The notes under the pieces were generated by a model. The model saw only the letters and a list, made by a program, of their open reading frames with translations, was not told where the DNA came from and made no database searches. From Nocardioides zeae (GTDB lineage Bacteria > Actinomycetota > Actinomycetes > Propionibacteriales > Nocardioidaceae): 64,000 nucleotides of DNA. Location: the NCBI RefSeq assembly GCF_030818655.1, contig NZ_JAUTAN010000001.1, positions 1,922,001-1,986,000 of the forward strand, written 5' to 3'. Both the position numbers and the translations under genes were made by a program. Of this stretch, positions 14,546 through 51,859 are shown piece after piece. Every line of letters starts with the position of its first letter. The stretch's first letter is position 1.

Positions 14546-14594
14546 CGCAGATCTCTACCTTCTTCCCGGCCGTACCAGGTACCGGGATAGACAC

Positions 14595-14649
14595 GGGGTC
14601 GCGGTGCGACCCCAGGGGCGGGCTCGGACGGCCGGTCGGCCGCCCGAGC
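14595..14649 (-). other. Two hairpins between rpoA and rplQ
   Basis: GGGGTCGC-GGT-GCGACCCC (14595-14613) and a longer stem with GCTCGG/CCGAGC and CGGCC/GGCCG arms (14622-14649) lie in the 113-nt gap between rpoA and rplQ. They are likely RNA processing or attenuation structures inside the operon; no U-tract follows. Confidence 0.45.
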
Positions 14650-35740: not shown

Positions 35741-38700
35741 TCACGCGTCCTTCGGGTCGAGCACCGTGTCGATGACCTTGGCCGCCCACTCGAGCAGCGC
35801 CAGCCCGGTGATGGGCTTGCCCGCCACCACGGCGGTCTGCGGACGCGGCACCAGCACGGTGTCCGTGGCCGGCTTGACCAGCGACTTCGGGTAGAGCCGC
35901 TGCAGCCGCACGGCGCGCGACTCGGGCAGCGAGACGGGCGCGAACCGCACGTTCTTGCCCGCCGAGGTGACCTCGCGGATCCCGGCCGCGCGGGCCCGCG
36001 CCCGGAACCGCGCGACGTAGAGGAGGCTCTCCACCTCGACCGGGGGCTCGCCGTACCGGTCGACGAGCTCCTCGCGGATCGTGTCGACGTCCTCGTTGCT
36101 GCGCACCTCCGACAGGCGCTTGTACATCTCGAGCCGCAGGCGCTCGCTCGGCACGTAGCCGTGCGGCAGGTGCGCCTCGACGGGCAGCTCGATGCGCACC
36201 TCCTCCAGCTGGTCGTCCGGGGCGCCCTTGAAGTCGGCCACCGCCTCGCCGACGAGCCGCACGTAGAGGTCGAAGCCGACGTCCGCGATGTGGCCGGACT
36301 GCTCCCCGCCGAGCAGGTTGCCGGCGCCGCGGATCTCGAGGTCCTTCATGGCGATCGCCATGCCGCCGCCGAGGTCCGAGTGCTGGGCCAGCGTCGCGAG
36401 CCGCTCGTGCGCGGTCTCCGTCAGCGGCTTCTCGCTCGGGTAGAGGAAGTAGGCGTAGGCCCGCTCCCGCGACCGGCCGACGCGCCCGCGCAGCTGGTGC
36501 AGCTGCGAGAGGCCGAGCGTGTCGGAGCGCTCGATGATCATCGTGTTGGCGTTGGAGACGTCGAGGCCCGACTCCACCAGCGTCGTGCAGACGAGCACGT
36601 CGAAGCGCTTCTCCCAGAAGTCGAGCATCACCTGCTCGAGCTGCTTCTCGTTCATCTGGCCGTGGGCCGTGGCGACCCGTGCCTCCGGCACCAGCTCCGT
36701 CAGGTGCTGGGCGGCCTTCTCGATCGACTGCACGCGGTTGTGGATGTAGAACACCTGGCCGTCGCGCAGCAGCTCCCGCCGGATGGCGGCGATGACCTGC
36801 CGGTCCTCGTACGCGCCGACGTACGTCAGCACCGGGTGCCGCTCCTCCGGGGGCGTGGTGATCGTCGACATCTCGCGGATGCCGGTCACCGCCATCTCGA
36901 GCGTGCGCGGGATGGGCGTCGCCGACATGGCCAGCACGTCGACGCTGGTGCGGAGCCGCTTCATCTGCTCCTTGTGCTCCACGCCGAAGCGCTGCTCCTC
37001 GTCGACGATGATGAGGCCGAGGTCCTTGAACCGGATGTCGGGGTTGAGCAGGCGGTGGGTGCCGATCACGATGTCGACCTCACCGGTGGTGAGGCCCTCC
37101 AGCACCGCCTTGGCCTCCTTGTCGGACTGGAAACGGCTCAGCGCCTTCAGCACGACGGGGAACCCGCTCATGCGCTCCGCGAAGGTCGAGAAGTGCTGCG
37201 TCACGAGCAGCGTCGTGGGCACGAGCACGGCGACCTGCTTGCCGTCCTGCACCGCCTTGAACGCGGCGCGCACCGCGATCTCGGTCTTGCCGTAGCCCAC
37301 GTCGCCGCAGACCAGCCGGTCCATGGGCACCAGCCGCTCCATGTCGCCCTTGACCTCGTCGACCGTCGAGAGCTGGTCCGGCGTCTCCGCGAACGGGAAC
37401 GCGTCCTCGAGCTCGCGCTGCCACGGCGTGTCGGGGCCGAAGGCGTGGCCCTGGGTGGCCTGCCGCGCGGCGTACAGCTTGATGAGCTCCGCCGCGATCT
37501 CCTTGACCGCCTTGCGGGCACGCGCCTTGCGCTTGGTCCAGTCGCCGCCGCCGAGGCGGTCGAGGGCCGGCTGCTCGCCGCCGACGTAGCGCGTCACCTG
37601 GTCGAGGGCGTCGGCCGGCACGTAGAGCCGGTCCGGCGGGGCGCCCCGCTTGGAGGCGCCGTACTCGAGCACGAGGTACTCCCGCACCGCCCCCTGCACC
37701 TCGCGCTGCTTCATCTCGATGAAGCGGCCGACACCGTGCTGCTCGTGCACGACGAAGTCGCCGGCCTTGAGCTCGAGCGGGTCGATCTGGCGCTTGCGGC
37801 GGGCGGGCATCTTGCGCATGTCGCGCGTCGACGCCTTCTGGCCCGAGATGTCCTCACCGGTGAGCAGGGCGAGGCGGTTGGGCTCGTCCACGAGGCCGTG
37901 GGTGAGCGCGCCGCAGGTCACCGTCACGACGTCGGTCGGCGGGAGGGTGTCGACGGCGTCGACGAGACGGGCCGGTACGTCGCGGTCCGCCAGCGCCTCG
38001 ACCGTGCGCTGGGCCGGACCGTGGCCCGGGTGCACGACGACGACGCGGTAGCCCTGGGTGAGCCAGCCCCCCACGTCGGCGAGCGCCTTCTCGACGTCGC
38101 CGCGGTAGGCCTCGGCGGGCTTCACCGACAGCGGCCGGCTGGGCACGCCGGCGATGGCGGCTTCCGTGGCCGGGGCGTCGACGGGCGCGCCGTCGTCCGC
38201 GATGCCGAACGGGCTGATGCTCCACCAGGCCTGGCCGCGGGCCAGGGCGTGCTCGCGCACGTCGGCGTAGGAGCGGTACGACGCCGCCCCCAGGTCGATC
38301 GGCGCCTGGCCCCCGCCGGCCGCGGCCGCCCAGGAGGCCGCGAGGAACTCCTCGCTCGTCGCGACGAGGTCCGCCGCACGACGGCGGCCGCGCTCGGGGT
38401 CGAGGACGAGCACGTGGGCGTCGGTCGGCAGCACGTCGAGGAGCAGCTCCAGCTCGTCGACGAGCACCGGCGCGAGCGACTCCATGCCCTCGACCGCGAT
38501 GCCCTCGGCGAGCTTCTCGGTGAGCTCGCGCAGCTGCGGGTGCTGCTCACCGAGGGCCCGGGCGCGCTCCCGCACCTCGGGCGTCAGCAGCAGCTCGCGG
38601 CAGGGCGGCGCCCACAACCGCTCGACCTTCTCCAGGGTGCGCTGGTCGGCGACCGAGAAGGTGCGGATGTCCTCCACCTCGTCGCCCCAGAACTCGACGC

Positions 38701-39298
38701 GCAGCGGGTGCTCGTCCGTCGGGGGGAAGACGTCGACGATGCCGCCACGCACGGCGTACTCCCCGCGCTTCTCGACGAGGTCGACGCGCGTGTACGCCGC
38801 CGCCTCCAGCCCGCGGACCACTCCCTCGAGCGACGCCTCGGCCCCGGGGGCGAGCTCGACGGGCACGAGGTCGCCCAGGCCCTTGACCTGCGGCTGCAAC
38901 ACGCTGCGCACCGGCGCCACGACGACGGACAGCGGGCCGTTGGCCGCGTCGTCCCCCGGGTGCGCGAGGCGGCGCAGCACGGCGAGGCGGCGGCCGACGG
39001 TGTCGCTGCGGGGGCTGAGCCGCTCGTGCGGGAGGGTCTCCCAGCTGGGGAAGTAGCCGACCGTCGCCGGGTCGAGCAGGTCGCCCAGCGCGGCGACGAG
39101 CTCCTCGGCGTCACGGGTCGTGGCGGTCACGGCGAGGACGGTGCGACCGAGGTCGGCGAGCCCCTTCACGACGAACGGCCGCACCGCGGCGGGACCGGTC
39201 AGGTCGAGGACCCGCTCGGAGCGGTCCCGCGCCCCCGCGAGCGCCTCGTCGAGGGTCGGATCGGCCAGGACGGCGTCGGCGAGCCCGGAGAGTTGCAC
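35741..39298 (-). CDS. mfd: Transcription-repair coupling factor
   Basis: Removes stalled RNA polymerase from DNA lesions and recruits UvrA. The 1185-residue protein has the complete order: UvrB-like damage module (TVGYFPSWETLPHERLSPRSD); RNA-polymerase-interacting domain (GDFVVHEQHGVGRF); and RecG-like motor with Walker A (CGDVGYGKTEIAVRAAF), DEEQRFG, ATPIPRTL and SGLDVSNANTMIIERSD. The TRCF C-terminal domain (LPHGYVPSERLRLEMYKRL) ends it. GTG 39298 has no clear ribosome site; TAGGCT sits just upstream, so a leaderless message is possible. The region upstream holds inverted repeats shared with the end of the transglycosylase gene. Confidence 0.97.
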   Translation of the reverse strand: MQLSGLADAVLADPTLDEALAGARDRSERVLDLTGPAAVRPFVVKGLADLGRTVLAVTATTRDAEELVAALGDLLDPATVGYFPSWETLPHERLSPRSDTVGRRLAVLRRLAHPGDDAANGPLSVVVAPVRSVLQPQVKGLGDLVPVELAPGAEASLEGVVRGLEAAAYTRVDLVEKRGEYAVRGGIVDVFPPTDEHPLRVEFWGDEVEDIRTFSVADQRTLEKVERLWAPPCRELLLTPEVRERARALGEQHPQLRELTEKLAEGIAVEGMESLAPVLVDELELLLDVLPTDAHVLVLDPERGRRRAADLVATSEEFLAASWAAAAGGGQAPIDLGAASYRSYADVREHALARGQAWWSISPFGIADDGAPVDAPATEAAIAGVPSRPLSVKPAEAYRGDVEKALADVGGWLTQGYRVVVVHPGHGPAQRTVEALADRDVPARLVDAVDTLPPTDVVTVTCGALTHGLVDEPNRLALLTGEDISGQKASTRDMRKMPARRKRQIDPLELKAGDFVVHEQHGVGRFIEMKQREVQGAVREYLVLEYGASKRGAPPDRLYVPADALDQVTRYVGGEQPALDRLGGGDWTKRKARARKAVKEIAAELIKLYAARQATQGHAFGPDTPWQRELEDAFPFAETPDQLSTVDEVKGDMERLVPMDRLVCGDVGYGKTEIAVRAAFKAVQDGKQVAVLVPTTLLVTQHFSTFAERMSGFPVVLKALSRFQSDKEAKAVLEGLTTGEVDIVIGTHRLLNPDIRFKDLGLIIVDEEQRFGVEHKEQMKRLRTSVDVLAMSATPIPRTLEMAVTGIREMSTITTPPEERHPVLTYVGAYEDRQVIAAIRRELLRDGQVFYIHNRVQSIEKAAQHLTELVPEARVATAHGQMNEKQLEQVMLDFWEKRFDVLVCTTLVESGLDVSNANTMIIERSDTLGLSQLHQLRGRVGRSRERAYAYFLYPSEKPLTETAHERLATLAQHSDLGGGMAIAMKDLEIRGAGNLLGGEQSGHIADVGFDLYVRLVGEAVADFKGAPDDQLEEVRIELPVEAHLPHGYVPSERLRLEMYKRLSEVRSNEDVDTIREELVDRYGEPPVEVESLLYVARFRARARAAGIREVTSAGKNVRFAPVSLPESRAVRLQRLYPKSLVKPATDTVLVPRPQTAVVAGKPITGLALLEWAAKVIDTVLDPKDA

Positions 39299-39532: not shown

Positions 39533-40492
39533 TCAGCCCGCGGCGTCCGCGTACCCGCTCGCGGCCGCGTACACCGACGCGACGTAGGCATCGTCGTGGT
39601 TGTAGGAGAACACCGCCTCGGCCCAGCCCTTCCCCGTCGCGAGGTCGTGGCCGTCGTGGCAGAGGTAGCGGGCGGCGGCGTAGGCCGCGTCGTCGAGGTC
39701 GTTGGGATCCATGACGCCGTCACCGTCGCCGTCGGAGCGCCAGCGGTCCCAGGTCGAGGAGATGAACTGGAGCGGACCGACGGCGTGGTCCCACGTCGGG
39801 TCGCCGTGCCACGCGGCGAGCAGCGGGTCGGACGGGATCGCCGCGAACCCCCCGGTCCCGTCGAGCGCCGGACCCACGATCGGCGGCTCGGCCCGGCCGT
39901 CGAGGCCGAGGATGCTGCCGTGGATCGTGCCGTGGTGGGACTCGACCCACCCGATGCCGGCGAGCGTCGACCAGCCCATCGAGCACGACGGCGCCTCCGT
40001 GCGCAGGCGCAGCTCGGCCACGGCGTACGCGTTGACCGCGACCGGCGGGATGCCCGTCGCCTCGGCCACCTGGGCGGTCCAGGCGGCGTCCACGACCGGG
40101 ACGACCGGGCGCCCGGCGGGCACGATCGGCGCGGGGTCGGAGGCGGGCGGCACCACCCCGCCGGGCGCGGACGTCCCCGCCTCGGGCGCCGGTGCCGGGG
40201 TGTCCCGGCCGAGCCACCACGCCGTGCCGACGAGGGCGAGGCCGAGGACCGCCACGAGGAGGGGTACGGCGAGGCGCCGTGTCCGCTGACGCCGCTGCGC
40301 CGCCCGGCGTCGGCGCTGGGCGGCGGTGGGCGCGCGACCCGACGACCGCGGCGCAGGCCGCCTGGCCGGAGCCGTCTTCTTCGCCGCGGCCTTCTTCGGC
40401 GCGGCCTTCTTCGGCGCGGCCTTCCCAGCCGCGGTCGTGCGCGGCGTCGGCCGGCTCCGCGGCGCCGGACGCCGCGGACCCGGCGAGGTCAC
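39533..40492 (-). CDS. Membrane-anchored lytic transglycosylase (LpqU-like)
   Basis: A 319-residue peptidoglycan lytic enzyme. The cytoplasmic N-terminus is a Lys/Ala/Pro-rich tail of histone-H1 style (KKAAPKKAAAKK). One membrane helix (about 73-94) is followed by a Pro-rich linker. The SLT-like domain at about 135-319 has catalytic Glu184 in AGIGWVESHHG, then VGPLQFISSTWDRW. A calcium-loop-like DGDGDGVMDPND and FSYNHDDAYVASVY follow. This resembles actinobacterial LpqU proteins near mfd and eno. GTG 40492 overlaps the pstB stop by four bases, tying it to the phosphate operon. Confidence 0.85.
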   Translation of the reverse strand: MTSPGPRRPAPRSRPTPRTTAAGKAAPKKAAPKKAAAKKTAPARRPAPRSSGRAPTAAQRRRRAAQRRQRTRRLAVPLLVAVLGLALVGTAWWLGRDTPAPAPEAGTSAPGGVVPPASDPAPIVPAGRPVVPVVDAAWTAQVAEATGIPPVAVNAYAVAELRLRTEAPSCSMGWSTLAGIGWVESHHGTIHGSILGLDGRAEPPIVGPALDGTGGFAAIPSDPLLAAWHGDPTWDHAVGPLQFISSTWDRWRSDGDGDGVMDPNDLDDAAYAAARYLCHDGHDLATGKGWAEAVFSYNHDDAYVASVYAAASGYADAAG

Positions 40493-41415
40493 CCGAAGCG
40501 GCCGTTGACGTAGTCGCTCGTGCGCTGGTCGCGGGGTGTGGTGAACATGGCGTCAGTATCCCCGTGCTCGACGATCACGCCGGGAGTGCCCTGCGCGGCG
40601 AGGAAGAAGGCGCAGGTCTGGGAGACCCGACGGGCCTGCTGCATGTTGTGCGTGACGATGACGATGGTGATCTCGCGGGCCAGCTCCGTCATGGTCTCCT
40701 CGATGACCCGGGTCGAGGTGGGGTCGAGCGCGGAGCACGGCTCGTCCATGAGCAGCACCTCGGGCCGCACCGCGAGCGAGCGGGCGATGCACAGCCGCTG
40801 CTGCTGCCCGCCCGACAGGCCGCCGCCGGGCGCACCGAGCCGGTCCCGCACCTCGGTCCACAGGCCGGCCCGCACGAGCGAGCTCTCGACGAGCTCGTCC
40901 TTCTCGTCGCGTGACGCCTTGGTGCCGGTGAGGCGGAGGCCCGCGAGCACGTTCTCCCTGATCGACATGGCGGGGAACGGGTTGGGCTTCTGGAACACCA
41001 TCCCGATGGCCCGGCGGGCGTCGGTCAGCTTGCGCCGCGGGTCGTAGACGTCCTGGCCGTCGAGGAGCACCTCGCCGGCGAGCGCCGCGGACGGCACCAG
41101 CTCGTGCATCCGGTTGAGGATGCGCAGGAAGGTCGACTTGCCGCACCCCGACGGACCGATGAGCGCGGTCACGCTCCGTGCGGGCATGGTGAGCGAGACG
41201 CGGTCGAGCACGAGCCGGTCGCCGAACCACGCCGACACCTCGCGCGCCTCGAGCTCCCCGCCCGTGCCGGGACCGGCGCCGCCGGTGCCCACCCGGTACG
41301 CCGCGGGCCCGCCGCCCGGCACCTCCCCGGGCAGGGCCGGGATGACGGTGGTGGCCTGGTCGTCGGCGTACAGGTCGACGGTCGCCGCGGTGGGGACGAC
41401 GGGGTCGTGGCGCAT
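40489..41415 (-). CDS. pstB: Phosphate ABC transporter ATP-binding protein PstB
   Basis: ATPase of the high-affinity phosphate importer. Walker A is LIGPSGCGKSTFLRILNRM, the Q-loop is FQKPNPFPAMSI, the ABC signature is LSGGQQQRLCIARSLA and Walker B is VLLMDEPCSALDP. The His switch is IVTHNMQQA. The NRM after Walker A and QKPNPFP are specific to PstB. An extra N-terminal stretch of about 55 residues (Pro/Gly/Ala-rich) precedes the ABC domain. It is separated from the rest of the pst genes by a strong hairpin and overlaps the transglycosylase start. Confidence 0.95.
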   Translation of the reverse strand: MRHDPVVPTAATVDLYADDQATTVIPALPGEVPGGGPAAYRVGTGGAGPGTGGELEAREVSAWFGDRLVLDRVSLTMPARSVTALIGPSGCGKSTFLRILNRMHELVPSAALAGEVLLDGQDVYDPRRKLTDARRAIGMVFQKPNPFPAMSIRENVLAGLRLTGTKASRDEKDELVESSLVRAGLWTEVRDRLGAPGGGLSGGQQQRLCIARSLAVRPEVLLMDEPCSALDPTSTRVIEETMTELAREITIVIVTHNMQQARRVSQTCAFFLAAQGTPGVIVEHGDTDAMFTTPRDQRTSDYVNGRFG

Positions 41416-41435
41416 GGGTCGGTTCCTCTCGGGGT

Positions 41436-41474
41436 GGCCCGCCGCCGTCGGACGGTGTCCGACGACGGCGGGCC
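41436..41474 (-). terminator. Strong hairpin between Ig-bearing binding protein and pstB
   Basis: A GGCCCGCCGCCGTCGGAC arm pairs with its inverse over about 18 bp (one mismatch) with a three-base loop, 32 nt past the stop of the upstream gene and 21 nt before pstB. It is likely a partial terminator or an RNA stabiliser that lowers pstB relative to the binding-protein genes. Confidence 0.6.
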
Positions 41475-41506
41475 GGGATGTGCGGTGGGGCGGTCCGGCG
41501 GGTGGG

Positions 41507-43354
41507 TCAGCGACCCGTGACCGTGAAGGTCTGGCTGCGGCCGTTGACGCTGCGGTCGCCGGAGTAGACGGCGCGCAGGGTGTGCGTGCCCCGGCCGACC
41601 TTCGGCAGGGTGATGGCGGCGACGCCCCGGCTCACCGTGCCGCGGGCGAAGACCTTGCTGCCGGCGTAGATCGTCACGCTGCCGGTGATGGCCTGCTGGA
41701 CGCCGGGCACGGTGACGACGACGGTCCCGCGGGTGCGGGACGCGCTGGTGGAGACGGCCGACGGGAAGGTCTCCCCGATGGCCGGGGTCGCCTTCTGGAT
41801 GGTGTGCGTGCCCGACGCGGAGGCGGGGACGAGCACGTCGTTGCCGAGGTACTCCATCTTGATGGCGTAGGCACCGGCGGGCGTCGAGGCCCCGGCGGTC
41901 AGCGTGGCCTTGCCGTTCGCGTCGAGGGCGACGGTCGTGCGGGCGCCGCCGAACGTGAAGCGGACCTGGCCGGTGGCCGCGGCGCCGTCCGGCGTCGTGA
42001 CGGTCGCGGACAGCACCCGGGCCTGGCCGAAGCTGCTGCGGCTCGGCGAGACACCCGCCCGGAGCACCGGTGCGACCTTGACGACGACGGAGGCGGCGGC
42101 GGAGGTGGAGCCCTCCTGGAGCACGCCGGAGCCGGGCACGTAGCGCGCCGTGTAGGTGTGGCTGCCCGCGGGGACGCCGGTGATCGTCGTGGCGAAGCGG
42201 CCCTGCGCGAACCGCGCCGTGGCGACCTTCGTCGTGCCCTCGAGGACCTCGACGGTGCCCGCCGAGACGTCCGCGCCCTTCGCGTCGACCGTGGCCGCGA
42301 ACGCCACGCTGCCCGCCGCCGGCGAGGACGCGGTGAGCGTCGTGCCCGTCACGACGACCTCGTTGGTCGTGAAGTTCGACGTCGCGCTCTGGGTCGCCTC
42401 GCCGCACACGCCGCCGAACTCGTCGCGGGCGAGCTGGTCGAAGCCGGCGGCCTCGATGAGCGGGCGCGCGTCGGTCGAGCACACGAAGCCGTCGGCGCCG
42501 AAGACGCCCGCGAGGCGGGTGCGGTCGGCCGCGCGCACGACGTTGTAGAGCGCACGCTTGGCGGAGAACCCGCCGACGATGGTGACGGTGCCCGCCAGCT
42601 CGGCCCGACCGGTCGAGAACGGCGCGATCGCGTTGGGGTTCGACTTCACGGTGGTGTCGTCGTGCTCCTGCACGTCCACCACCGTCGCGGCCAGCGTGAC
42701 GTCGACACCGCCGTTGAGCTTCTTCAGCTCGGAGGTGAAGAAGGAGCGCGTGCCGGAGCCCGACTGCGGGATCTGCGGGACGATCGCGCCCGCCTTGCCG
42801 CCGACCTCGCTCCAGTTCTTGATCGTGCCCTGGTAGATCCCGACGATCTGCGCCGAGGTCAGGGTGGCGGGCGCGTTGGTCGTGCGGGCCGTCGCGAGCC
42901 CGAGGCCGTCGACGGCGAACGGGTAGGCGTAGAGGCCGGCGTTGACCTCGGCGTCGTTGAGCGCCGAGGAGGAGCGCGCGAAGTCGATGTTCGGGTTCGA
43001 GGGGTTGTAGAGCGTGGCCTTGCCCTGGCCCGAGCCGTTGGGCCGGTTGACGGGCTGCGTCCCCTGGCGCACGACGATCTGCGCGCTGGTGCCGGCCGTG
43101 AGGGCGTGGAAGCTGCGGAGCTTCCCCGTGGTGACGGAGGCGTTGTAGCCCGGCACCGCGGTCCCGGCGACGGTCGCGCCGTCGGCCAGGTTGTCGAGCA
43201 CGAACTGGCTGGTGTCGGAGCCGACGCCGACGATGTCGCCGGCGGCGGGCGGAGCGGCGGGGTCGGCCGAGGCGGGGGCGAGCGAGCCCAGCGCGAGCGC
43301 CGCGGTCGCCAGCGACCCGGCGAGCACGGTGGAGAGGAGCGGACGAGCGAACAT
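41507..43354 (-). CDS. PstS-like substrate-binding protein with C-terminal Ig-like repeats
   Basis: A 615-residue secreted protein. The signal peptide MFARPLLSTVLAGSLATAALALGSLAPASA is followed by a PBP-II fold (about 31-335): GDIVGVGSDTSQFVLDNLA, IDFARSSSALND, VDGLGLATARTTNAPATLTSAQIVGIYQG, and the PstS-type anion loop PQSGSGTRSFFTSEL. Cys-containing VCSTDARPLIEAAGF/GGVCGE follow. Three or more Ig-like domains (about 340-615) end in RGTHTLRAVYSGDRSVNGRSQTF. Those Ig domains resemble those of the phytase-like protein at 27.4-31.2 kb. It probably binds phosphate or a phosphorylated ligand at the cell surface. Sits in the pst operon. Confidence 0.82.
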   Translation of the reverse strand: MFARPLLSTVLAGSLATAALALGSLAPASADPAAPPAAGDIVGVGSDTSQFVLDNLADGATVAGTAVPGYNASVTTGKLRSFHALTAGTSAQIVVRQGTQPVNRPNGSGQGKATLYNPSNPNIDFARSSSALNDAEVNAGLYAYPFAVDGLGLATARTTNAPATLTSAQIVGIYQGTIKNWSEVGGKAGAIVPQIPQSGSGTRSFFTSELKKLNGGVDVTLAATVVDVQEHDDTTVKSNPNAIAPFSTGRAELAGTVTIVGGFSAKRALYNVVRAADRTRLAGVFGADGFVCSTDARPLIEAAGFDQLARDEFGGVCGEATQSATSNFTTNEVVVTGTTLTASSPAAGSVAFAATVDAKGADVSAGTVEVLEGTTKVATARFAQGRFATTITGVPAGSHTYTARYVPGSGVLQEGSTSAAASVVVKVAPVLRAGVSPSRSSFGQARVLSATVTTPDGAAATGQVRFTFGGARTTVALDANGKATLTAGASTPAGAYAIKMEYLGNDVLVPASASGTHTIQKATPAIGETFPSAVSTSASRTRGTVVVTVPGVQQAITGSVTIYAGSKVFARGTVSRGVAAITLPKVGRGTHTLRAVYSGDRSVNGRSQTFTVTGR

Positions 43355-43449
43355 CGGGTGGATCTCCTGTCATCAGCTGCGCACCACGGTCGCGGTGCGT
43401 TCTTCTCGGGTGGGGTGGGACGGGAGGAACGGGTGCTGCGGAGGAGCGG

Positions 43450-44358
43450 TCAGAGGAGGTTGGGGAGCAGCCGCGCGGCGCTGTCGGCGGTCGCCCAGGA
43501 GAGCGCGAGCACGACGGGGGCGCTCACGACCCACACGAGGGCCCCGGCCACCCGGCGGCGGAGGAGGGCGATGGCGACGACCGCGACGCACACCCCGCCG
43601 AGCTGCAGCGCGAGCAGCGGCAGGGCGGCCGTGTCGACGTGCTGGGGCTTCTCCCCCGCGGGTACGGCGCTGGGCACACCGCCCGGCGCCGCGAACCCCT
43701 CGCCGTCCACGGGCACGGTGGAGGTGTCGACGTAGAGCACCTCGCCCGTGCTGAGCCGCCCGAGCGCCGTGTCCGTCGCGCCCGTGACGAGCGTGAGCCG
43801 GGCCTCGCCGTCGGCGAGGGGCCCGGGCAGCGGGTCGCCCGCCCGCCGCAGCCCCGTCACGGCGAGGCGCTGCCGGCCCTGGGCCCCGACGACCTCGACG
43901 GTGTCGCCGACCGCCAGCTCGTCGAGCCGCGCGAAGGGTCCGCCGAACGTCACGGCCCGGCCCTGCACGACGCTCACGCCCACCTGGCCGGGGAGCACGG
44001 TGTCCCGCCGGTGGCCGGGGCCGGCCCGGAGGTCGCCCGACGCCGTGCCCTCGACGACCACCTCGGCGACGTCGATCGCGGGGATCGTCAGCAGCGCGAC
44101 GGGTGCGCCGACCGGAGCGGTCGGACCGACGGGCACGAAGCCGCCCGCGACGTCGGCGCGGAACGCGTCGTACAGCACCGCCTGGTCGCGCGCGTGGGAG
44201 ACGCCGGAGAGCACGAGCAGGTGCAGCAGCAGCGTGAGGCTGAGCAGCGCGAGCGTGAACGCGGCGGAGGAGCCGACCTCGAGCCGGCTGCCGGGCCCGC
44301 CGACGGGGGCGGTCCTCGGCGGGCCGGGCGCCACGGGGTCGACCACCGGGGCGTTCAC
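43450..44358 (-). CDS. Sortase-fold membrane protein with Cys-to-Gly replacement
   Basis: A 302-residue protein. N-terminal membrane helix at about 33-53, sortase beta-barrel at about 85-212, then two C-terminal membrane helices at about 236-256 and 262-282. His116 (GPGHRRDT) aligns with the catalytic His and Arg201 (LGRLSTG) with the catalytic Arg. The transpeptidase motif TLxTC reads LTLVTG, so Gly193 (GGC codon) replaces the nucleophile. It should be inactive as a transpeptidase, unless the sequence is wrong at one base. GTG 44358 overlaps the previous stop. A scaffold or recognition role for the neighbouring secreted binding proteins is possible. No LPXTG substrates are visible in the operon. 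Confidence 0.72.
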   Translation of the reverse strand: MNAPVVDPVAPGPPRTAPVGGPGSRLEVGSSAAFTLALLSLTLLLHLLVLSGVSHARDQAVLYDAFRADVAGGFVPVGPTAPVGAPVALLTIPAIDVAEVVVEGTASGDLRAGPGHRRDTVLPGQVGVSVVQGRAVTFGGPFARLDELAVGDTVEVVGAQGRQRLAVTGLRRAGDPLPGPLADGEARLTLVTGATDTALGRLSTGEVLYVDTSTVPVDGEGFAAPGGVPSAVPAGEKPQHVDTAALPLLALQLGGVCVAVVAIALLRRRVAGALVWVVSAPVVLALSWATADSAARLLPNLL

Positions 44359-46934
44359 GAGCGGACCTTCCGCGCGACGAGCACGACCCGCCCGACCGCG
44401 CCCCCGAGGGCGCCGACGAGCGTCAGCACGAGGAGCAGTGGCAGCAGGGCGCTGGACGTCCAGGGCGAGCTCACCGGTGCGGTGGCCGCGGTCGTGACCG
44501 CCGCCGCCCCACCGGCCGGCGCGGTCGCGCCCGCAGCGGCGGGGGCGTCCGCCGCCGGGACGGCGCCGGGCAGGTCGCCCACGCCTCCCCCGGCCGGGAA
44601 CGAGGGCGCTCCGGTGTCGGTGCCGGGGACGACCGGGGGTGCGACCGTCGGCGCCTCCTGGGCCGCCACCAGCTCGGCCGCGCGCTGCGCGCTGCGCCAC
44701 AGCGGGGCGGTCGCCCCGGCGTCGGTGATGGGCAGGTACCCCTCCGGCAGCGTGCCGTTGCCGCGGCCCGGCCGCTGGCCCTCCGTCGTGGCCACCTGCA
44801 GGAACTGTGCGACGTCCGTCGCCTGCTCCGCCGGGAGCCCGTGGGTGCGGGCGACCGTGTGCACGACGAGGGTCCCCGGGTAGGCGTCACCCGCCTGCCG
44901 CACGGCCTGCTGGTCGACCACGTACGGCGCGACCGCGGCCTCCGCCACCCCGACGGTGTCCGTCGCGGGGCGGGCGAGGGCGACGGCCTTCGTCAGTCCC
45001 TCCGTCGTCGGTCCGACGAAGGTGCCCTCGCGGGTCTGGAGCTCGGCGACCGACAGCCCGAGGCGGGCGGCGTCACCGAGGCTGACGATGCCGAGCATGA
45101 AGCGGGTGCCGAGGCCCTGCCGGTTGACGCGTCCCACCCGCCACGGGTCGTTCGCCGAGGACCGCTCGCAGCGCGTCTGCACGTTGGGCCAGGCGTCGAG
45201 CACGGCCTCGGCGACCCGGCGCAGCGTCGTGACGGGTGCGGCGACCTGGTTGAAGTAGACGGACGGGTTGGCCTTGAGGCACTCCTGCTCGCTGGACGGC
45301 ACGTAGGTGTCGAGCAGCGGGAAGTCCCGCACCGGCAGCGCCATCCCGGCGTACGACGGGTTGACCCGCATGCCCCAGGGGTCCGGCCGGCCCTGCACGA
45401 ACGCGGCCGCGTCGGGGTCGGCCGCGACGTACGCGGTCAGCGCACCGATGACGTCCGAGGACTCCGAGATCGAGAGCACGGTGGCCGCGGCCTCCCGGGC
45501 GATCCGGTCCAGGTCGGGGTTGAGGGCGACGAACTCGGGGTCCTGGTTGATCGAGGTCGGGTTGTCCCCCATGCCGGGGTGCCCGCGCCCGAGGTCGGAG
45601 GCGACGTAGGACTGGGTCAGCAGCTTGGCGACGAGCCGCGCGTTGAGCCGCAGCTCGTCGACGGCCCCGGCGTTGTCGGGGCGGTCGACCACGTAGGCGA
45701 CGCCGAACCCGGTGACGGCGGTCGGTCCGTAGGCCGTCGAGGTGCCGCGACGCGCGTCGTGCGGCCCGGACACGAGGGCCGCCGCGCCCTCGCCGCTCTC
45801 CATGAGCGCGAAGCCCGCCTCGTCGCTCATCCGGTTGTGCTGGAACTTGAAGCGGCCGTCCTCCAGGCAGTAGGCCGGGGCCCACTGCAGCGAGGCCTGC
45901 GCGAGCAGCTCGGACCCGTAGAACCCGACCGGTGCCCGCGGGTCGAGCACGTCGCACACGTTGGGGGCGAGGCCGAAGGTCAGCGGGACGGAGAACCGGT
46001 GCTGCCAGTTCGACGCCGACCACCACAGCGCGGGCGACACGGCGAGGTCGACGCCCTCGGACGCGTAGTTGCTGGAGCCCTCCAGCCAGCGGCCGCTGCG
46101 GCGGCACTCGGGGTCGGTGTCGCACGACAGGCCCATGATCGGGATGACGACGATCGAGCAGGGCGTGGTCGCGTTGCAGCCGAGGGAGGCGTTCTCGACG
46201 TCGGTGCGCACCTCGAGGTCGACCGACCCGCGGCCGTCGGCGTCGGTGAACGCCGCGACCTCGGCCGGCGGCAGCGCGCCGTCGACGGCCGCCTCCGGCG
46301 CCATGGTCTCCGCGCTGCACGAGGCGAACCGGTCGCCGTCCGCGGCGGTGAACCCCGTGGCCCAGGTCGAGAAGCCGTCGACGGCGGCGCAGGTCGCGGC
46401 GTCCGGCAGCGGCGTCGTCCCCGCCCGGGCGGACCGCTCCTCCTCGGTCGCGGCGGTGTCGTGGCGCCACACGGCGGTGCGGTCGGGCAGGCTCTGCGAG
46501 CGCTGGGCCCGCGTCGAGGTCCAGCACGTGTCCCTCGACAGCCGCTGCGCGGCGGGCAGGTCGGGGTCGTCGAGCCCCCGGCACTGCAGCACGACGACGG
46601 GGTACTCCTGCGCCAGTCCGGTCTCGCCGTAGGGGTCCGCCGCCCGGGCACCGCTCGGGCGCGCGCCCGACCAGCTGACGTGCACCCGCTCGCGCGAGCG
46701 CAGCTGCTGGGTCTTGTCGACCGTCACGGTGACCTCGCGGCTGTCCACCACCTCGCGCGTGCCGTCGGCGTCGGTGAAGGTGCGTTCCAGCGTGCGGGTC
46801 TGCTCGAAGCCACCGGTGGCCGGCGCCGCCTGGGCCGGCGGGACGTCGGCGGACGGCAGCCCGACGAGCACCGCCGCGGCGAGCAGCAGGCCGGCCAGCA
46901 GCCGGGCGCGGGCGCCGGCGAGCCGCCGCCTCAC
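44355..46934 (-). CDS. Large secreted, C-terminally membrane-anchored protein of the pst operon
   Basis: An 859-residue protein with a signal peptide (LLAGLLLAAAVLVGLPSA...AQA). The long ectodomain has several Cys pairs (VLQCRGLDD, DTCWTS, GCNATTPCSIVVIPIMGLSCDTDPEC). The C-terminal membrane helix SALLPLLLVLTLVGALGGAVGRVVL precedes a basic tail. Central segments such as SVPLTFGLAPNVCDVL, FKFQHNRMSDEAGFALMESGEGAAALVSGPHD and AVTGFGVAYVVDRPDN read like a periplasmic-binding-protein fold, so I favour an enlarged binding protein; this is not certain. GTG 46934 overlaps the pstS stop and its own stop overlaps the sortase-like gene. I know no characterised homolog. Confidence 0.65.
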   Translation of the reverse strand: MRRRLAGARARLLAGLLLAAAVLVGLPSADVPPAQAAPATGGFEQTRTLERTFTDADGTREVVDSREVTVTVDKTQQLRSRERVHVSWSGARPSGARAADPYGETGLAQEYPVVVLQCRGLDDPDLPAAQRLSRDTCWTSTRAQRSQSLPDRTAVWRHDTAATEEERSARAGTTPLPDAATCAAVDGFSTWATGFTAADGDRFASCSAETMAPEAAVDGALPPAEVAAFTDADGRGSVDLEVRTDVENASLGCNATTPCSIVVIPIMGLSCDTDPECRRSGRWLEGSSNYASEGVDLAVSPALWWSASNWQHRFSVPLTFGLAPNVCDVLDPRAPVGFYGSELLAQASLQWAPAYCLEDGRFKFQHNRMSDEAGFALMESGEGAAALVSGPHDARRGTSTAYGPTAVTGFGVAYVVDRPDNAGAVDELRLNARLVAKLLTQSYVASDLGRGHPGMGDNPTSINQDPEFVALNPDLDRIAREAAATVLSISESSDVIGALTAYVAADPDAAAFVQGRPDPWGMRVNPSYAGMALPVRDFPLLDTYVPSSEQECLKANPSVYFNQVAAPVTTLRRVAEAVLDAWPNVQTRCERSSANDPWRVGRVNRQGLGTRFMLGIVSLGDAARLGLSVAELQTREGTFVGPTTEGLTKAVALARPATDTVGVAEAAVAPYVVDQQAVRQAGDAYPGTLVVHTVARTHGLPAEQATDVAQFLQVATTEGQRPGRGNGTLPEGYLPITDAGATAPLWRSAQRAAELVAAQEAPTVAPPVVPGTDTGAPSFPAGGGVGDLPGAVPAADAPAAAGATAPAGGAAAVTTAATAPVSSPWTSSALLPLLLVLTLVGALGGAVGRVVLVARKVRS

Positions 46935-48562
46935 CGCGACGCTCCCGGGCGGCGGCGGAGCCAGACGGTGATCATCGCGGGCAGGAAGACGAGCGCGAGC
47001 ACCTCGGCCGCCACGAGCCACGCGAACGGTCCCCGGTCCCCCGGCCGGTCGGAGGTCAGCTCGAGCGGGCTCGCGAAGACGGCTCCCCCGCCCGTCGCCG
47101 CGGCCGCCACCGGTTGCCCGGTCGTCGGGTCGAGCTGCACGTCGGACCCCACCGGGGCCGCGCCGGTGCCGGCGCCGGCCGGACCCGCCGCCGTACCCGT
47201 GCCGCCGCCTCCCCCGCCGCCACCACCCGCGGCGGGGTCGTCGGTCGAGGGCTCGCCGGTGCCGGTGTCGGTGCCGCACGGTCCCGCACCCTGCTTGTCG
47301 CAGGCCGCCGGGGCGGGCGCGATCGTCGCGAGCCGGTTCTCGTTCAGGTTGCGACCGTTGAAGGTGGGGTTGTTGCAGGACCGTACGTCGCGGTTGGCGA
47401 GCTCGACGCCCCCGTCGGCCGTGCCGAGCCGGGCGAGCTGGGTGAAGCCCGCCTGCACGAGGTTGAGCGGGAGCGGCGAGTAGCCGTAGGGGCCGGCCTT
47501 GGTCTGGCCCTGGCAGAGCGAGTAGTACATGAAGTCCACGAGCGTCTGCCGCTTCGCGGTCGTCATGCGCCGGTCCTGCGCGCCGACCGGGATGATCATG
47601 TAGGAGTACGACGACAGGGGGTAGGCCCGCGGGTCCGTCGAGGAGTAGACGCCCCGCAGGTCCTGCGTCAGGTAGTCCGACGCCGACGGGTCCTCGGTCT
47701 TGATCCGGGCCTGGGTCAGGGCCACCGCGACGTTGTACTGGGTCGGCTCGACGTAGTACCCGCCCTCGTTGAGCACCTTGACGACCGGGTAGTCCTCGTT
47801 GACCGGGTAGGAGTACTCGACGTACCCGATCGTGCCGTTGCCCGACGAGCTCGCGACCGTGTTCATCACCTGGTCGGAGCCGGCCTGGGCGATCGCGCGT
47901 CCCTCGCGCGGGAAGTAGGACGTGAGCGTGCCCCGGGGGAAGAGCGACTTCCAGGTGCTGCCGTGCCGGGCCGCCAGCCACGCCGTGAACTGGGCGGTGG
48001 TGCCCGAGCCGTCGGCGCGCACGACGGGCGTGATGGGGATCTTGGGGAACGTGCGGCCGTTGTTGTCGGCCGTGATCGCCGGGTCGTCCCAGCTCGTGAT
48101 CTGGTTGGTGAAGATCTTGGCGATCGTGGCGCCCGACAGCCGCAGGTTGCGCACCTGCTGGTTGCCCACCTTGAGCTGGTAGGTGAAGGCCGTGCCGCCG
48201 GCGACGATCGGCAGGTAGGCGAACTGCCGGTTGCCCGCGGTGTCGGCGTTCCCGAACTCGTCGACCCCCTGGTACGGGATCTCCGAGATGGCGAAGTCGG
48301 TGCTGCCCTGGGCGAAGTTCTTGCGGCCGAGGGACGAGCCGCCGCCCGTGTAGGCGACGCGCATGCCGGTGGCCTCGACGTCCGCGATCCACTGCTCGAC
48401 GATGAGCTGGCTCCACGTCGAGCCGGTGCCCTCGATCTGGGCGTAGACCACGGCGCGCGCGGCGGCCGCGTTGCCGGACGTCGTCCCCAGCAGCAGGAGG
48501 AGCGTGGCCACGAGGGCGGCGTACCGGAGCACCCGGGGTCGGGGCGGGGCGGGGAGTCGCAT
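46931..48562 (-). CDS. pstS: Membrane-anchored phosphate-binding protein PstS
   Basis: A 543-residue phosphate-binding protein. The signal peptide RYAALVATLLLLLGTTSGNAAA precedes the binding fold with phosphate loops EGTGSTWSQLIVEQW, TGGGSSLGRKNFAQGSTDFAISEIPY and RADGSGTTAQFTAWL. The usual Gram-positive PstS is an N-terminal lipoprotein of about 370 residues. Here there is no lipobox; instead a Gly-rich linker (about 430-500) leads to a C-terminal membrane helix (WLVAAEVLALVFLPAMITVWL) with RRRP. ATG 48562 overlaps the pstA stop (TGATG). It lies after the permeases, not before them. Confidence 0.9.
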   Translation of the reverse strand: MRLPAPPRPRVLRYAALVATLLLLLGTTSGNAAAARAVVYAQIEGTGSTWSQLIVEQWIADVEATGMRVAYTGGGSSLGRKNFAQGSTDFAISEIPYQGVDEFGNADTAGNRQFAYLPIVAGGTAFTYQLKVGNQQVRNLRLSGATIAKIFTNQITSWDDPAITADNNGRTFPKIPITPVVRADGSGTTAQFTAWLAARHGSTWKSLFPRGTLTSYFPREGRAIAQAGSDQVMNTVASSSGNGTIGYVEYSYPVNEDYPVVKVLNEGGYYVEPTQYNVAVALTQARIKTEDPSASDYLTQDLRGVYSSTDPRAYPLSSYSYMIIPVGAQDRRMTTAKRQTLVDFMYYSLCQGQTKAGPYGYSPLPLNLVQAGFTQLARLGTADGGVELANRDVRSCNNPTFNGRNLNENRLATIAPAPAACDKQGAGPCGTDTGTGEPSTDDPAAGGGGGGGGGTGTAAGPAGAGTGAAPVGSDVQLDPTTGQPVAAAATGGGAVFASPLELTSDRPGDRGPFAWLVAAEVLALVFLPAMITVWLRRRPGASR

Positions 48563-49713
48563 CAGGACCTCTTCGAGAGCGGGCCACGGGCCAGGAGCCG
48601 GGCGGTGACGAACAGCACGAGCACCAGCACGAGCAGCACGCTCGCCGCGGCGAAGCCGCGGGCGATGGCCTGGGGCTCGCCCGAGCGCACCGTGCTGAAG
48701 ACGTAGAGCGGCAGGGAGTTCATGAACCCCGACGTCGGGTCGAGCGTGAGGAAGGGCGCCGCGCCGGACGTGAGCAGCACGGGTGACGTCTCGCCGACGC
48801 CGCGGGCGACGCCGAGGATGAGGGCCGTCGCCAGTCCGGGCCGCGCGGTCGGCAGCACGACGTGCCAGACGACGCGCCACCGGCTGGCGCCCAGGGCCAG
48901 GCCCGCCTCCCGGAGCCCGCTCGGCACGACGCGGAGCACGACGTCGGAGGCCCGGGCGATGATCGGCAGCATCATGACGGCGATGGCCAGGCCGGCCGCC
49001 AGGCCGGAGCGGGGGTAGCCGAGCGCCACCACCATCACCGTGTAGACGAACAGGCCGGCCACGATGGAGGGCAGCGCGGTCATCGCCTCCACGACGGTGC
49101 GCACGACCGTGGCGAACCGTCCTCCGACCTCGGTCATGAACACCGCGGTGCCGATGCCGAGCGGCACCGTGATCGCGATCGCGATGCCCAGCTGGATGAG
49201 CGAGCCGGCCACGGCGTGGAGGATGCCGCCGCGGTCGAAGGCGTCCCGCGGGCCGATGCCCGCCATGTCGTCGGTGAAGAAGTTGAGGTGCAGGAGCGGG
49301 CGCCACCCCTTCGCCAGCGTGAAGACCATGACGCTGACCAGCGCCGCGCCGACGACGAGGGCGCCGACCGTGACCGCGGAGCGCACCAGCTGGTCGGCCA
49401 CCTCGTTGCGGTTGCCGACGAGGGCCGTCGTGACGGCGACGAGCCCCATGCCGAGCACGAACCACAGCAGGAGCAGCCAGCCGACGGACGCCAGCGGCAG
49501 CACCCGCTGCGTCAGCAGCCACGCCAGCGCGAACCCGGCGACCCACGCCCCCGCACGGGCGACGCGCTCCTCGGCCGTCGCCCGCCCCAGGCCGGTGCGG
49601 CGCACCGGGGGCGGCGCGGCGGGGTCGACGGCGGGCAGCACCGTGCGCGGGGGCACGGCGACGTGGCGGGCCTCGTCGAGGGCGGGACGGGGGAGCTCGG
49701 GGGCCGTGGTCAT
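48562..49713 (-). CDS. pstA: Phosphate ABC transporter permease PstA
   Basis: A 383-residue inner-membrane permease with about eight helices. An N-terminal cytoplasmic stretch of about 55 residues and two extra helices (WVAGFALAWLLTQRVLPLASVGWLLLLWFVLGMG) precede the BPD_transp_1 core. The core has ALPSIVAGLFVYTVMVVALGY and the EAA loop EAGLALGASRWRVVWHVVLPTARPGLATALILGVARGVGETSPVLLT. The latter pattern is diagnostic for PstA. ATG 49713 overlaps the pstC stop (ATGA). Confidence 0.94.
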   Translation of the reverse strand: MTTAPELPRPALDEARHVAVPPRTVLPAVDPAAPPPVRRTGLGRATAEERVARAGAWVAGFALAWLLTQRVLPLASVGWLLLLWFVLGMGLVAVTTALVGNRNEVADQLVRSAVTVGALVVGAALVSVMVFTLAKGWRPLLHLNFFTDDMAGIGPRDAFDRGGILHAVAGSLIQLGIAIAITVPLGIGTAVFMTEVGGRFATVVRTVVEAMTALPSIVAGLFVYTVMVVALGYPRSGLAAGLAIAVMMLPIIARASDVVLRVVPSGLREAGLALGASRWRVVWHVVLPTARPGLATALILGVARGVGETSPVLLTSGAAPFLTLDPTSGFMNSLPLYVFSTVRSGEPQAIARGFAAASVLLVLVLVLFVTARLLARGPLSKRS

Positions 49714-50720
49714 GCGTCGGTCCCCTGTCCCGAGCGGCTGCGGTTGACGATGATCGCGGCGAGCGTGTTGACCGCCAGCGTGATGAGGAAGAGCGCGAAC
49801 CCGGCGGCGAGCAGGGCCGACAGCTGGGCGGCGCTGGCGTCGCCGAAACGGGCGGCGATGAGTGCGGCCACGGTGTTGGTGCCGACCTCGAGGATGTGCG
49901 GCTTGATGTCGAACGCGGGGCTGATGATGAGGTAGACCGCGATGGTCTCGCCCAGCGCGCGCCCGAGCCCGAGCATGGTGCCGCCGACGATGCCGCCGCG
50001 TCCGAAGGGCAGCACGACGGTGCGCACCATCCCCCACCGCGTCGCGCCGAGGGCGAGGGCGGCCTCCTTCTCGGCCTGCGGGGTCTGGCTGAACACCTGG
50101 CGCATCACCGCGCACGACATCGGCAGCACCATCATCGCCACGGCGATCGCCGCGCAGAACGCGCTGGCGATGTAGCGGGTCTGGTCCCAGACCGCCGCGT
50201 CCGGGTCGGCGCTCGGGACGTCGAAGAGCGGGATCCAGCCGAGCGTGCCGTGGAGCCACCGGGCGATCTCCGCGGCGTACGGCTGCACGAGCAGGGCGCC
50301 CCACAGCCCGTAGACGATGCTCGGGACGGCGGCCATCAGGTCGACGAGCGAGACGAGCGTGGCCCGGACCGAGTGCGGGGCGTACTCCGCGATGAACAGC
50401 GCCGTCAGCAGGGCGAGCGGGAAGGCGATGACCAGCGCGACGCCCGCGACGGAGACCGTGCCGACGAGGATCCCGGCGATGCCGACCGTGCCCTGCTCGG
50501 GCGCCCAGTCCTCCTCGGTGAAGAAGGACAGCCCGTAGTGCCGCAGCGTGGGCACGGCCTGCCACGCGAGGAACAACCCGATGCTGCCGGTGACGACGAG
50601 CACCGTCGCCCCGATCGCCCGGAAGCCGTGCACGAACACCCGGTCCGCGCCCGTCGGGCGTCGGGAGATCGCGCGCGGGAGCGCCTCGATCTCGTCGTGC
50701 TGCGTCGGAACCGTCGTCAC
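49710..50720 (-). CDS. pstC: Phosphate ABC transporter permease PstC
   Basis: A 336-residue permease and first gene of the operon. Six or more helices; TEEDWAPEQGTVGIAGILVGTVSVAGVALVIAFPLALLTALFIAEYA is the typical PstC N-half. The EAA loop is EKEAALALGATRWGMVRTVVLPFGRGGIVGGTMLGLGRALGETIAV. GTG 50720 (VTTVPTQHDE) is chosen; a longer reading runs into the regulatory region. It heads pstC-pstA-pstS-ORF-sortase-like-binding protein-pstB-transglycosylase, all but one joined by overlaps or short gaps. Confidence 0.94.
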   Translation of the reverse strand: MTTVPTQHDEIEALPRAISRRPTGADRVFVHGFRAIGATVLVVTGSIGLFLAWQAVPTLRHYGLSFFTEEDWAPEQGTVGIAGILVGTVSVAGVALVIAFPLALLTALFIAEYAPHSVRATLVSLVDLMAAVPSIVYGLWGALLVQPYAAEIARWLHGTLGWIPLFDVPSADPDAAVWDQTRYIASAFCAAIAVAMMVLPMSCAVMRQVFSQTPQAEKEAALALGATRWGMVRTVVLPFGRGGIVGGTMLGLGRALGETIAVYLIISPAFDIKPHILEVGTNTVAALIAARFGDASAAQLSALLAAGFALFLITLAVNTLAAIIVNRSRSGQGTDA

Positions 50721-50788
50721 GGGTCGGTGTCCCCCATCGGGTGCGGGCGGCCACCTGACGGCCGCGGACCGACGGGAAATCTGGGGGC

Positions 50789-50832
50789 GGTCCGCCAACG
50801 GACCGACCGCTTCGGGTGAACGTCCGACCAAC
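50789..50832 (-). promoter_or_regulatory. PHO-box-like 11-nt direct repeats upstream of pstC
   Basis: On the minus strand four 11-nt units follow each other: GTTGGTCGGAC, GTTCACCCGAA, GCGGTCGGTCC, GTTGGCGGACC. The second carries the GTTCACC core of actinobacterial PhoP boxes and matches the core before the phytase-like gene. They lie 69-112 nt before the pstC start within the 293-nt gap 50721-51013, which holds no gene. Confidence 0.45.
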
Positions 50833-51013: not shown

Positions 51014-51859
51014 TCAGCCGGCCGCGATCGCCGCCAGCACGGCGTCGGCGAGCTCGGCCCGGCAGACGACGAGGTCGGGCAGGTAGACGTCGGCCGCGTT
51101 GTAGCGCAGCGGCGACCCGTCGATCCGGCTCGTGTGCAGGCCGGCGGCCCGCGCGACGGCGACCGGTGCCGCGGAGTCCCACTCGTACTGCCCCCCGGCG
51201 TGCACGTAGACGTCCGCGACGCCCCGCACGACCGCCATCACCTTCGCGCCCGCCGAGCCCATCGGGACCAGCGTGGCGCCGATGGCGGCGGCCACGACGT
51301 CGCTCACCTCCGGCGGGCGGCTCCGGCTGACGACGAGGCGCGGCGCTCCCGCGGCGTACGGCGGGGGCACCGGCACGTCCGCCGTGCTCCAGGTCTCCCC
51401 GAGCGCGGCCTGCGCGACGGCCCCGGCGGTGAGGTCGCCGACCTCGCCGGGGGCGCCGGCACCGCGCTCCCACAGGGCGACGTGCACCGCCCAGTCGTCG
51501 CGGGGCGGCTCGCCGAACTCGCGGGTGCCGTCGAGGGGGTCGACGATCCACACCCGGTCGGCGTCGAGACGGGCCGGGTCGTCCGCACCCTCCTCGGAGA
51601 GGACGGCGTCACCCGGCCGCAGCCGGGCCAGCAACCCCGTCAGCAGCACGTGCGCGGCGCGGTCGCCCGCGTCCTTCAGGTCGCTCGTCTCCCACGACTC
51701 GGCCACCGCCGTCGTCCGCAGGTCGACGAGCCGTGCGCCCGCCAGCGTCGCCAGCCGCTCGGCGAGGCGGTGGTCGTCGAGCCCGGCGAGCCCGGCGAGC
51801 CCGGGGTCGGTGGCGCTGGGCCGCGGGGACGGATCGGACGGGCTGGAGTCGTGGGGCAC
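51014..51859 (-). CDS. cysQ: 3'(2'),5'-bisphosphate nucleotidase (CysQ-like)
   Basis: Inositol-monophosphatase-fold enzyme of 281 residues, likely hydrolysing 3'-phosphoadenosine 5'-phosphate (PAP) to AMP. Metal site 1 is LSEEGADD (E-E), then VWIVDPLDGTREF (D-P-L-D-G-T), and the distal YEWDSAAPVAVARAAG. The S-E-E-x-x-D and DGTREF wording matches CysQ more than IMPase or HisN. The N-terminal 20 residues are Ser/Pro-rich. PAP is the by-product of sulfotransferases, and one is encoded 2.6 kb upstream in the same direction. FBPase or IMPase side activity cannot be excluded. Confidence 0.82.
   Translation of the reverse strand: MPHDSSPSDPSPRPSATDPGLAGLAGLDDHRLAERLATLAGARLVDLRTTAVAESWETSDLKDAGDRAAHVLLTGLLARLRPGDAVLSEEGADDPARLDADRVWIVDPLDGTREFGEPPRDDWAVHVALWERGAGAPGEVGDLTAGAVAQAALGETWSTADVPVPPPYAAGAPRLVVSRSRPPEVSDVVAAAIGATLVPMGSAGAKVMAVVRGVADVYVHAGGQYEWDSAAPVAVARAAGLHTSRIDGSPLRYNAADVYLPDLVVCRAELADAVLAAIAAG

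Follow-up and report, generated by a model that had tools for sequence, protein, structure and literature searches.

A second phosphate importer is encoded in Nocardioides zeae (NZ_JAUTAN010000001.1, a single contig of 4.38 Mb) by an operon of eight genes, which was analysed within a stretch of 64 kb (the window, whose coordinates are used below unless positions are given in Mb). The genes run on the minus strand from 50720 to 39533 in the order pstC, pstA, pstS1, BIG, SRT, pstS2, pstB and a gene for a lytic transglycosylase-like protein. It encodes a Pst importer of a variant type that includes a conserved pseudosortase (SRT), and the literature searched gave no description of this system. 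Judging by sequences and structure models, the operon is fairly likely to specify an additional Pst importer, preceded by a PHO-box-like promoter element, in which the capture side would be organised as a membrane and cell-wall complex. These results suggest that the capture proteins are spread from the membrane to the wall, and that two non-functional derivatives, one of a sortase and one of PstS, act as structural parts.

The genes named in a preliminary description of this region are all present (pstC, pstA, a PstS with a C-terminal helix and without a lipobox, a protein of 859 residues, a sortase-fold protein, PstS2, pstB and the transglycosylase gene). They had been presented as nearly all joined by overlaps, which holds for five of the seven junctions (4 nt at pstC/pstA, pstS1/BIG, BIG/SRT and pstB/transglycosylase, and 1 nt at pstA/pstS1); at the other two, the genes are 95 nt (SRT/PstS2) and 91 nt apart (PstS2/pstB). 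The operon had also been delimited as 40489..50832, which leaves out the transglycosylase gene (39533-40492) and ends on the first base of the PHO-box-like repeat. The observation is confirmed and its interpretation is partly supported; what had been missed is that SRT is without catalytic residues and that BIG has a PstS fold in which other residues take the place of the phosphate ligands.

A second Pst system beside the canonical one

The canonical Pst operon of the same genome is located near 3.008-3.012 Mb. Its PstS carries a lipobox (LSAC) and scores 211.4 bits (cut-off 205), its PstB scores 368.8 bits (cut-off 343.2), and the two frames between them are permease-like by reading of the sequence. 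In the window, the permeases PstC (49710..50720; TIGR02138, 249.7 bits, cut-off 196.45) and PstA (48562..49713; TIGR00974, 209.9 bits, cut-off 193.45) are above the cut-offs of their models, and the ATPase PstB (40489..41415; TIGR00972) reaches 336.5 bits, just below the cut-off of 343.2, with the whole model length aligned and 57% identity to the canonical PstB.

Full-length SRT (a match reaching residue 301 or 302) was found in 40 of 196 genomes of the order, each of which has two or more PstB. The number of PstB equals the SRT copies plus one in 37 of them, and one further PstB is present in G060, G087 and G153. Among the 156 genomes without SRT, one PstB was found in 150, two in three (G108, G178 and G181) and none in three (threshold E 1e-75). 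Counts for the order, the class and the genus were made by reading tables, and at most 12 (SRT) and 13 (PstB) candidates were scored per genome of the order. Since a canonical Pst operon is present and no genome with full-length SRT has fewer than two PstB, the window operon is a second Pst system, an addition to the canonical PstSCAB. The earlier proposal of a rebuilt operon is rejected, because the canonical operon with its lipoprotein PstS is retained.

Regarding PstSCAB in general, the window operon shares the clustering of PstC, PstA, PstB and PstS homologues behind a PHO-box-like direct repeat, as is stated for Streptomyces pstS in PMC7866108. However, it starts with pstC, adds BIG, SRT and PstS2, and runs beside a canonical copy, and PstS1 has a C-terminal helix instead of the lipobox of PstS, which PMC2605767 gives as a lipoprotein in actinobacteria. 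It also has no phoU, an absence that had been noted correctly; this gene is at 2.26 Mb (TIGR02135, 181.8 bits, cut-off 130.25), adjoining the genes for a PhoR/PnpS-like kinase (below the cut-offs of both models) and a response regulator judged by sequence.

Two full-length SRT copies were seen in G007, G038, G136, G153, G161, G174 and G175, several of them with operons differing in gene order. Furthermore, a PitA-like frame (145.8 bits, below the cut-off of 800) and a TIGR00153-like partner, also below its cut-off, adjoin the canonical pst genes on the other strand (L165, 2785-4429, ~3.005 Mb).

Conservation of the gene set

A scan of named genomes with the SRT alignment gave 333 relatives, and the locus counts cover the best 80. 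These include Nocardioides, Aeromicrobium, Mumia, Pimelobacter, Cellulomonas, Pengzhenrongella, Dactylosporangium, Asanoa, Amycolatopsis, Actinocrispum, Jiangella, Microbacterium, Cryobacterium, Herbiconiux, Streptomyces and an Acidimicrobiales metagenome-assembled genome. All eight genes recur in unchanged order, with 89-98% identity, at the locus of Nocardioides zeae JCM 30728 (L073). At least one of pstC, pstA, pstS1 and pstB is near SRT in 79 of the 80 loci, the exception being a locus of 3.2 kb with BIG (L114), and BIG is present in 76 of the 80, the remainder being short loci.

Where 9 kb was available on both sides, PstS1, BIG, SRT, PstS2 and PstB occur together in 52 of 57 loci, and the five loci short of the set are four from Dactylosporangium without PstS2, plus L144. 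The set plus pstC or pstA was counted from matches in 46 of these 57. A stricter count from extracted frames gives the full set in 36 of 58 loci of at least 19 kb, where most misses are frames that were not extracted or pstC/pstA genes beyond the locus. The gene order pstS2-BIG-SRT-pstB-pstC-pstA-pstS1 is found in L040 and L046, and SRT is directly 3' of pstS1 in L053. Among 118 genomes sampled evenly from the class, 32 gave an SRT match at E 1e-15 or better; 23 of these matches span from residue 33 or earlier to 301-302, and the other nine are partial, some surely being ordinary sortases. The recurrence of this set across many families, with more than one gene order, argues that the arrangement is not due to chance and that the extra genes belong with pst. 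Absence of the extra genes from all relatives, which would have spoken against the preliminary interpretation, was checked for and did not apply.

The promoter region and a hairpin within the operon

A PHO-box-like 11-nt direct repeat, GTTGGTCGGAC-GTTCAC, lies on the minus strand at 50816..50832, 112 nt upstream of the pstC start. Upstream regions were compared for the window and for the 43 of the 80 loci that have a pstC start and 400 nt before it. Of these 44 regions, 28 contain the form GTTC-N7-GTTCAY at a distance of 91-140 nt before pstC (0.01 expected in shuffled sequence), and for each of ten other spacings of the GTTC pair (7 to 17) the number of regions is 0-2. With the canonical pstS region included, which has 3, the 45 upstream regions contain the word GTTCAY 49 times (3.8 expected), and five control words occur 0-5 times in the same regions (~4 expected). 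The PHO box of Streptomyces pstS is given in PMC7866108 as two 11-nt direct repeats.

A perfect 18-bp stem-loop is present between PstS2 and pstB on the minus strand (41436..41474; z -4.05, 0 of 200 shuffles). In S. lividans, the pstS transcript is reported to be more abundant than that of the later genes, probably via terminators after pstS (PMC7866108), and the PstS2/pstB hairpin would fit this terminator idea.

PstS1, PstS2 and the nature of the ligand

PstS1 (543 residues, 46931..48562) matches solved PstS proteins with a best E of 9.9e-30. The residues of the phosphate site are numbered as in what we take to be the E. coli PstS numbering, and they were counted in the 62 PstS1 and 70 PstS2 frames uncut by locus ends, plus the window. 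In PstS1, the T10, S38, R135, S139, G140 and T141 positions are kept in most of the 63 sequences, and Trp is at the F11 position in all 63. PstS2 (615 residues, 41507..43354) is a secreted PstS-like protein with PBP_like_2 and three Big_3_5 (Ig-like) stretches. It is a more distant relative of PstS (95.6%, E 1.3e-8), and its GSDT and SGT motifs are invariant (71/71).

Concerning the anchors, 59 of 62 PstS1 and 68 of 69 BIG carry a hydrophobic helix at the C-terminus, as do none of 70 PstS2. The idea of membrane-anchored binding proteins is therefore sustained for PstS1 and BIG, and PstS2 does not conform to it. The helix of the window PstS1 is followed by an Arg tail; no lipobox Cys was found in this protein, and a lipobox-like sequence was seen in just 3 of 62 PstS1 homologues. 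Tail motifs of the LPxTG/LAxTG type are rare (2/62 PstS1, 3/69 BIG and 1/70 PstS2).

The importer could also be real and have another phosphorus compound as its ligand (for example pyrophosphate, a phosphate ester or wall-derived phosphate), and although we consider this rather unlikely, it would explain why it coexists with the canonical Pst. Such a ligand would be consistent with the Glu at the D56 position of PstS1 (53/63; E94 in the window) and the Pro at the R135 position of PstS2 (62/71). On the other hand, the other phosphate-site positions of PstS1 are largely kept, and the PHO-box-like repeat and the scores of PstC and PstA above the phosphate permease cut-offs speak for a phosphate importer, as proposed here.

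BIG, a PstS fold without phosphate ligands

BIG (859 residues, 44355..46934) is composed of a beta-rich N-terminal part (~43-300), a PstS-fold domain (residues 331-759, 44658..45944), a low-confidence linker and a C-terminal helix (825-858). The PstS fold was found both by a profile search and in the structure model, and a fold of its own, outside the known ones, was rejected on this basis for the domain 331-759. A PDB sequence search with the single BIG sequence gave no match; Pfam gave none for BIG itself and PBP_like_2 in 2 of 55 homologues. In these 55 chosen sequences, the profile alignment places other residues at the phosphate-ligand positions: T10 is replaced by E, D56 by V/T, R135 by L/P/I, G140 by D and T141 by V/A, and the S139 position is still Ser in 47. 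BIG is thus predicted to be a PstS-fold protein that lost its phosphate ligands. This loss also separates it from PstS-1/PstS-3 of Mycobacterium tuberculosis, as do its extra 300-residue N-terminal part, six invariant Cys and the C-terminal helix.

Three acidic residues, E342, D/E371 (D371 in the window) and D494, are conserved at or adjoining the former ligand positions. It seems improbable, but it is conceivable, that they hold a divalent metal such as Ca2+ or Mg2+ and that phosphate is bound by PstS1/PstS2. If this were true, the complex would separate phosphate from calcium at the wall, or position phosphate via wall-bound calcium, and mineral phosphate beyond the reach of an ordinary Pst would become accessible.

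SRT, a pseudosortase

In SRT (302 residues, 43450..44358; Pfam Sortase 42.7 bits, cut-off 26.6), a class-E-like sortase domain (~84-219) is flanked by predicted membrane helices, one on the N-terminal side and two on the C-terminal side. The catalytic residues of sortases, presumably His, Cys and Arg, were looked for in two sets that may overlap, one of 121 sequences (the 120 best-listed of 2562 matches, plus the window) and one of 79 (from the best 80 of 333 relatives with L074 left out, found via one peptide pattern clear of the catalytic positions). Cys is absent from both sets (0/121 and 0/79, with Ala in 63/79), as is Arg (0/121 and 0/79), and His was found in 0/121 and 4/79, being replaced by Arg or Lys in all 121. 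In the window, R134 (codon 43957..43959) is at the His position and G193 (codon 43780..43782) at the Cys position. A working sortase was rejected because the catalytic residues are absent, and SRT is best regarded as a predicted sortase fold without them.

Four Dactylosporangium loci (L100, L101, L104 and L107) encode pseudosortases in which the catalytic His is kept and the Cys is gone, and no PstS2 match was obtained there; these proteins are possibly an early branch.

SRT shares with the class E sortases of actinobacteria (SrtE/SrtF) the sortase fold and a similarity that extends up to the active site. It differs from them in the missing catalytic His, Cys and Arg, in the two C-terminal membrane helices and in its association with pst genes. 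Many of these proteins are named 'sortase', 'class E sortase', 'sortase A' or 'hypothetical protein' in the databases, so that a group of presumed sortases probably bears the wrong name. The word 'pseudosortase' was not found in a search of the open-access literature. Likewise, among the papers listed, no title or start of an abstract dealt with a pst operon that encodes a sortase-like or WxL protein; a description may be in print elsewhere.

Other roles for these proteins should be considered. SRT and BIG could be signalling parts which sense the occupancy of PstS1/PstS2 and report the phosphate status, and do not organise capture. Their membrane helices, the lack of catalytic or phosphate-binding residues and the constant Arg or Lys at the His position of SRT would agree with this, but it is unlikely, as the models leave no room for a folded cytoplasmic domain in SRT or BIG, and PhoU and a PhoR/PnpS-like kinase are encoded elsewhere in the genome. 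SRT would hardly be a transpeptidase that anchors PstS1 or BIG to the wall through other residues, given the absence of Cys, the predominance of Ala at its position and the scarcity of LPxTG/LAxTG-like motifs in the tails of both proteins. Finally, extra genes that are chance neighbours or hitch-hikers without a transport role would suit a patchy presence in the genus, yet this is the least probable reading of all and was rejected, since SRT is with pst genes in 79 of the 80 loci, the set recurs across many families and several orders, and frames overlap in the window.

Links with the cell wall

A table was made of the 57 loci where SRT or pstB comes after PstS2. In 25 of them, from the Nocardioides clade, PstS2 has 508-635 residues and the next gene is at most 139 nt away; in the other 32, PstS2 has 323-391 residues and 1.4-6.4 kb of further sequence follow it (BIG in L109). 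The 74 insert frames (75 minus L109:15410-18154, which is BIG) gave, at E <=0.01, 19 matches to the WxL-interacting peptidoglycan-binding domain (WxLIP; best E 1.6e-9), 15 to Big_3_5 and 9 to WxL, and many insert-encoded proteins in related operons have C-terminal helices. The presence of Big_3_5 and WxL/WxLIP frames in the inserts indicates that the Ig domains which form part of PstS2 here are often encoded separately at other loci, next to PstS2 and close to genes for wall-binding proteins.

According to PMC10599100, WxL and WxLIP proteins are known from Firmicutes, WxL almost entirely so. The inserts of the related operons share the WxL and WxLIP domains with the WxL/WxLIP (DUF916-DUF3324) clusters of Firmicutes, and their WxLIP architecture is as given in that source. 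However, they are located beside a phosphate importer and in Actinomycetota, and a genome search found no WxLIP in N. zeae itself.

The transglycosylase-like protein (39533..40492; SLT_2 22.8 bits, just below 24.3) carries a GWVESHHG motif and is an accessory member, with a match in 31 of 80 loci. All 29 extracted copies retain the ES/ET motif, with xH next in 28.

Proposed organisation of the capture complex

The conservation of the extra genes with pst, the PHO-box-like repeat and the WxL/WxLIP proteins of related operons make a wall-reaching capture complex the best reading. The wall-spanning capture device of the preliminary description is retained in this form, and the wall-opening role it gave to the transglycosylase remains a guess. 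PstS2 would catch phosphate out in the wall and hand it inward, and BIG could offer a PstS-like docking surface near the permease that does not compete for phosphate. SRT would hold, without cutting, the C-terminal segments of PstS1 and BIG via the old sorting-signal groove, by which the anchored proteins would be arranged around PstCA. Since sortases read the C-terminal segments of membrane-held surface proteins, a non-catalytic SRT beside two proteins with C-terminal helices would most simply be their holder. The tie to the peptidoglycan may be made by the WxL and WxLIP proteins in other families and by the Ig domains fused to PstS2 in the clade of the window, and the transglycosylase, where present, might make room in the wall.

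Several observations weigh against this reading. As regards affinity and ligand, PstS1 has the Glu at the D56 position mentioned above and scores 186.9 bits, below the PstS equivalog cut-off of 205; the alignment of PstS2 covers part of the PBP domain, residues 35-213, and the comparison of the BIG pocket used a profile alignment and not coordinates. PstS2 had no match in the Dactylosporangium loci, nor, at E 1e-6, in L036, L041, L045 and L048, and PstS2 frames of intermediate length occur outside the 57-locus table (L097, 429; L119, 453; L123, 489; and L135, 523 residues). Some of the 74 insert frames overlap mutually, so a few may not be genes, and among five WxLIP matches seen singly just that of L043 (31.1 versus 27.3) is above the Pfam cut-off, the other four being below. 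The strict repeat is missing in 16 of the 44 upstream regions, and the window, which is not among the 28, has a weaker form, GTTGGTCGGACGTTCAC at 50832-50816, with a degenerate first unit (GTTG). Moreover, the trait was found in 19 of 47 genomes of the genus, a patchy presence that indicates that it is not essential.

To our knowledge, how Gram-positives hold solute-binding proteins around an importer within a thick wall is poorly known. The operon represents a widespread natural case, with an importer, three PstS-fold proteins on different anchors and a sortase-derived pseudoenzyme, to which relatives add WxL-type wall-binding proteins. Phosphate uptake in these genomes would be divided between the canonical system and a surface system that comes in addition to it.

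Neighbouring features

Upstream of pstC, on the same strand, there is an open frame of about 280 residues (51014-51859, minus strand), whose product presumably resembles inositol monophosphatase/CysQ-type phosphatases. Directly downstream of the transglycosylase gene, and outside the count of the cluster, lies an open frame of 1185 residues (35741-39298, minus strand), which we take to be probably mfd. Further away, an L17 ribosomal protein leader was detected at 14561-14613 on the minus strand (Rfam RF03132, 44.5 bits).

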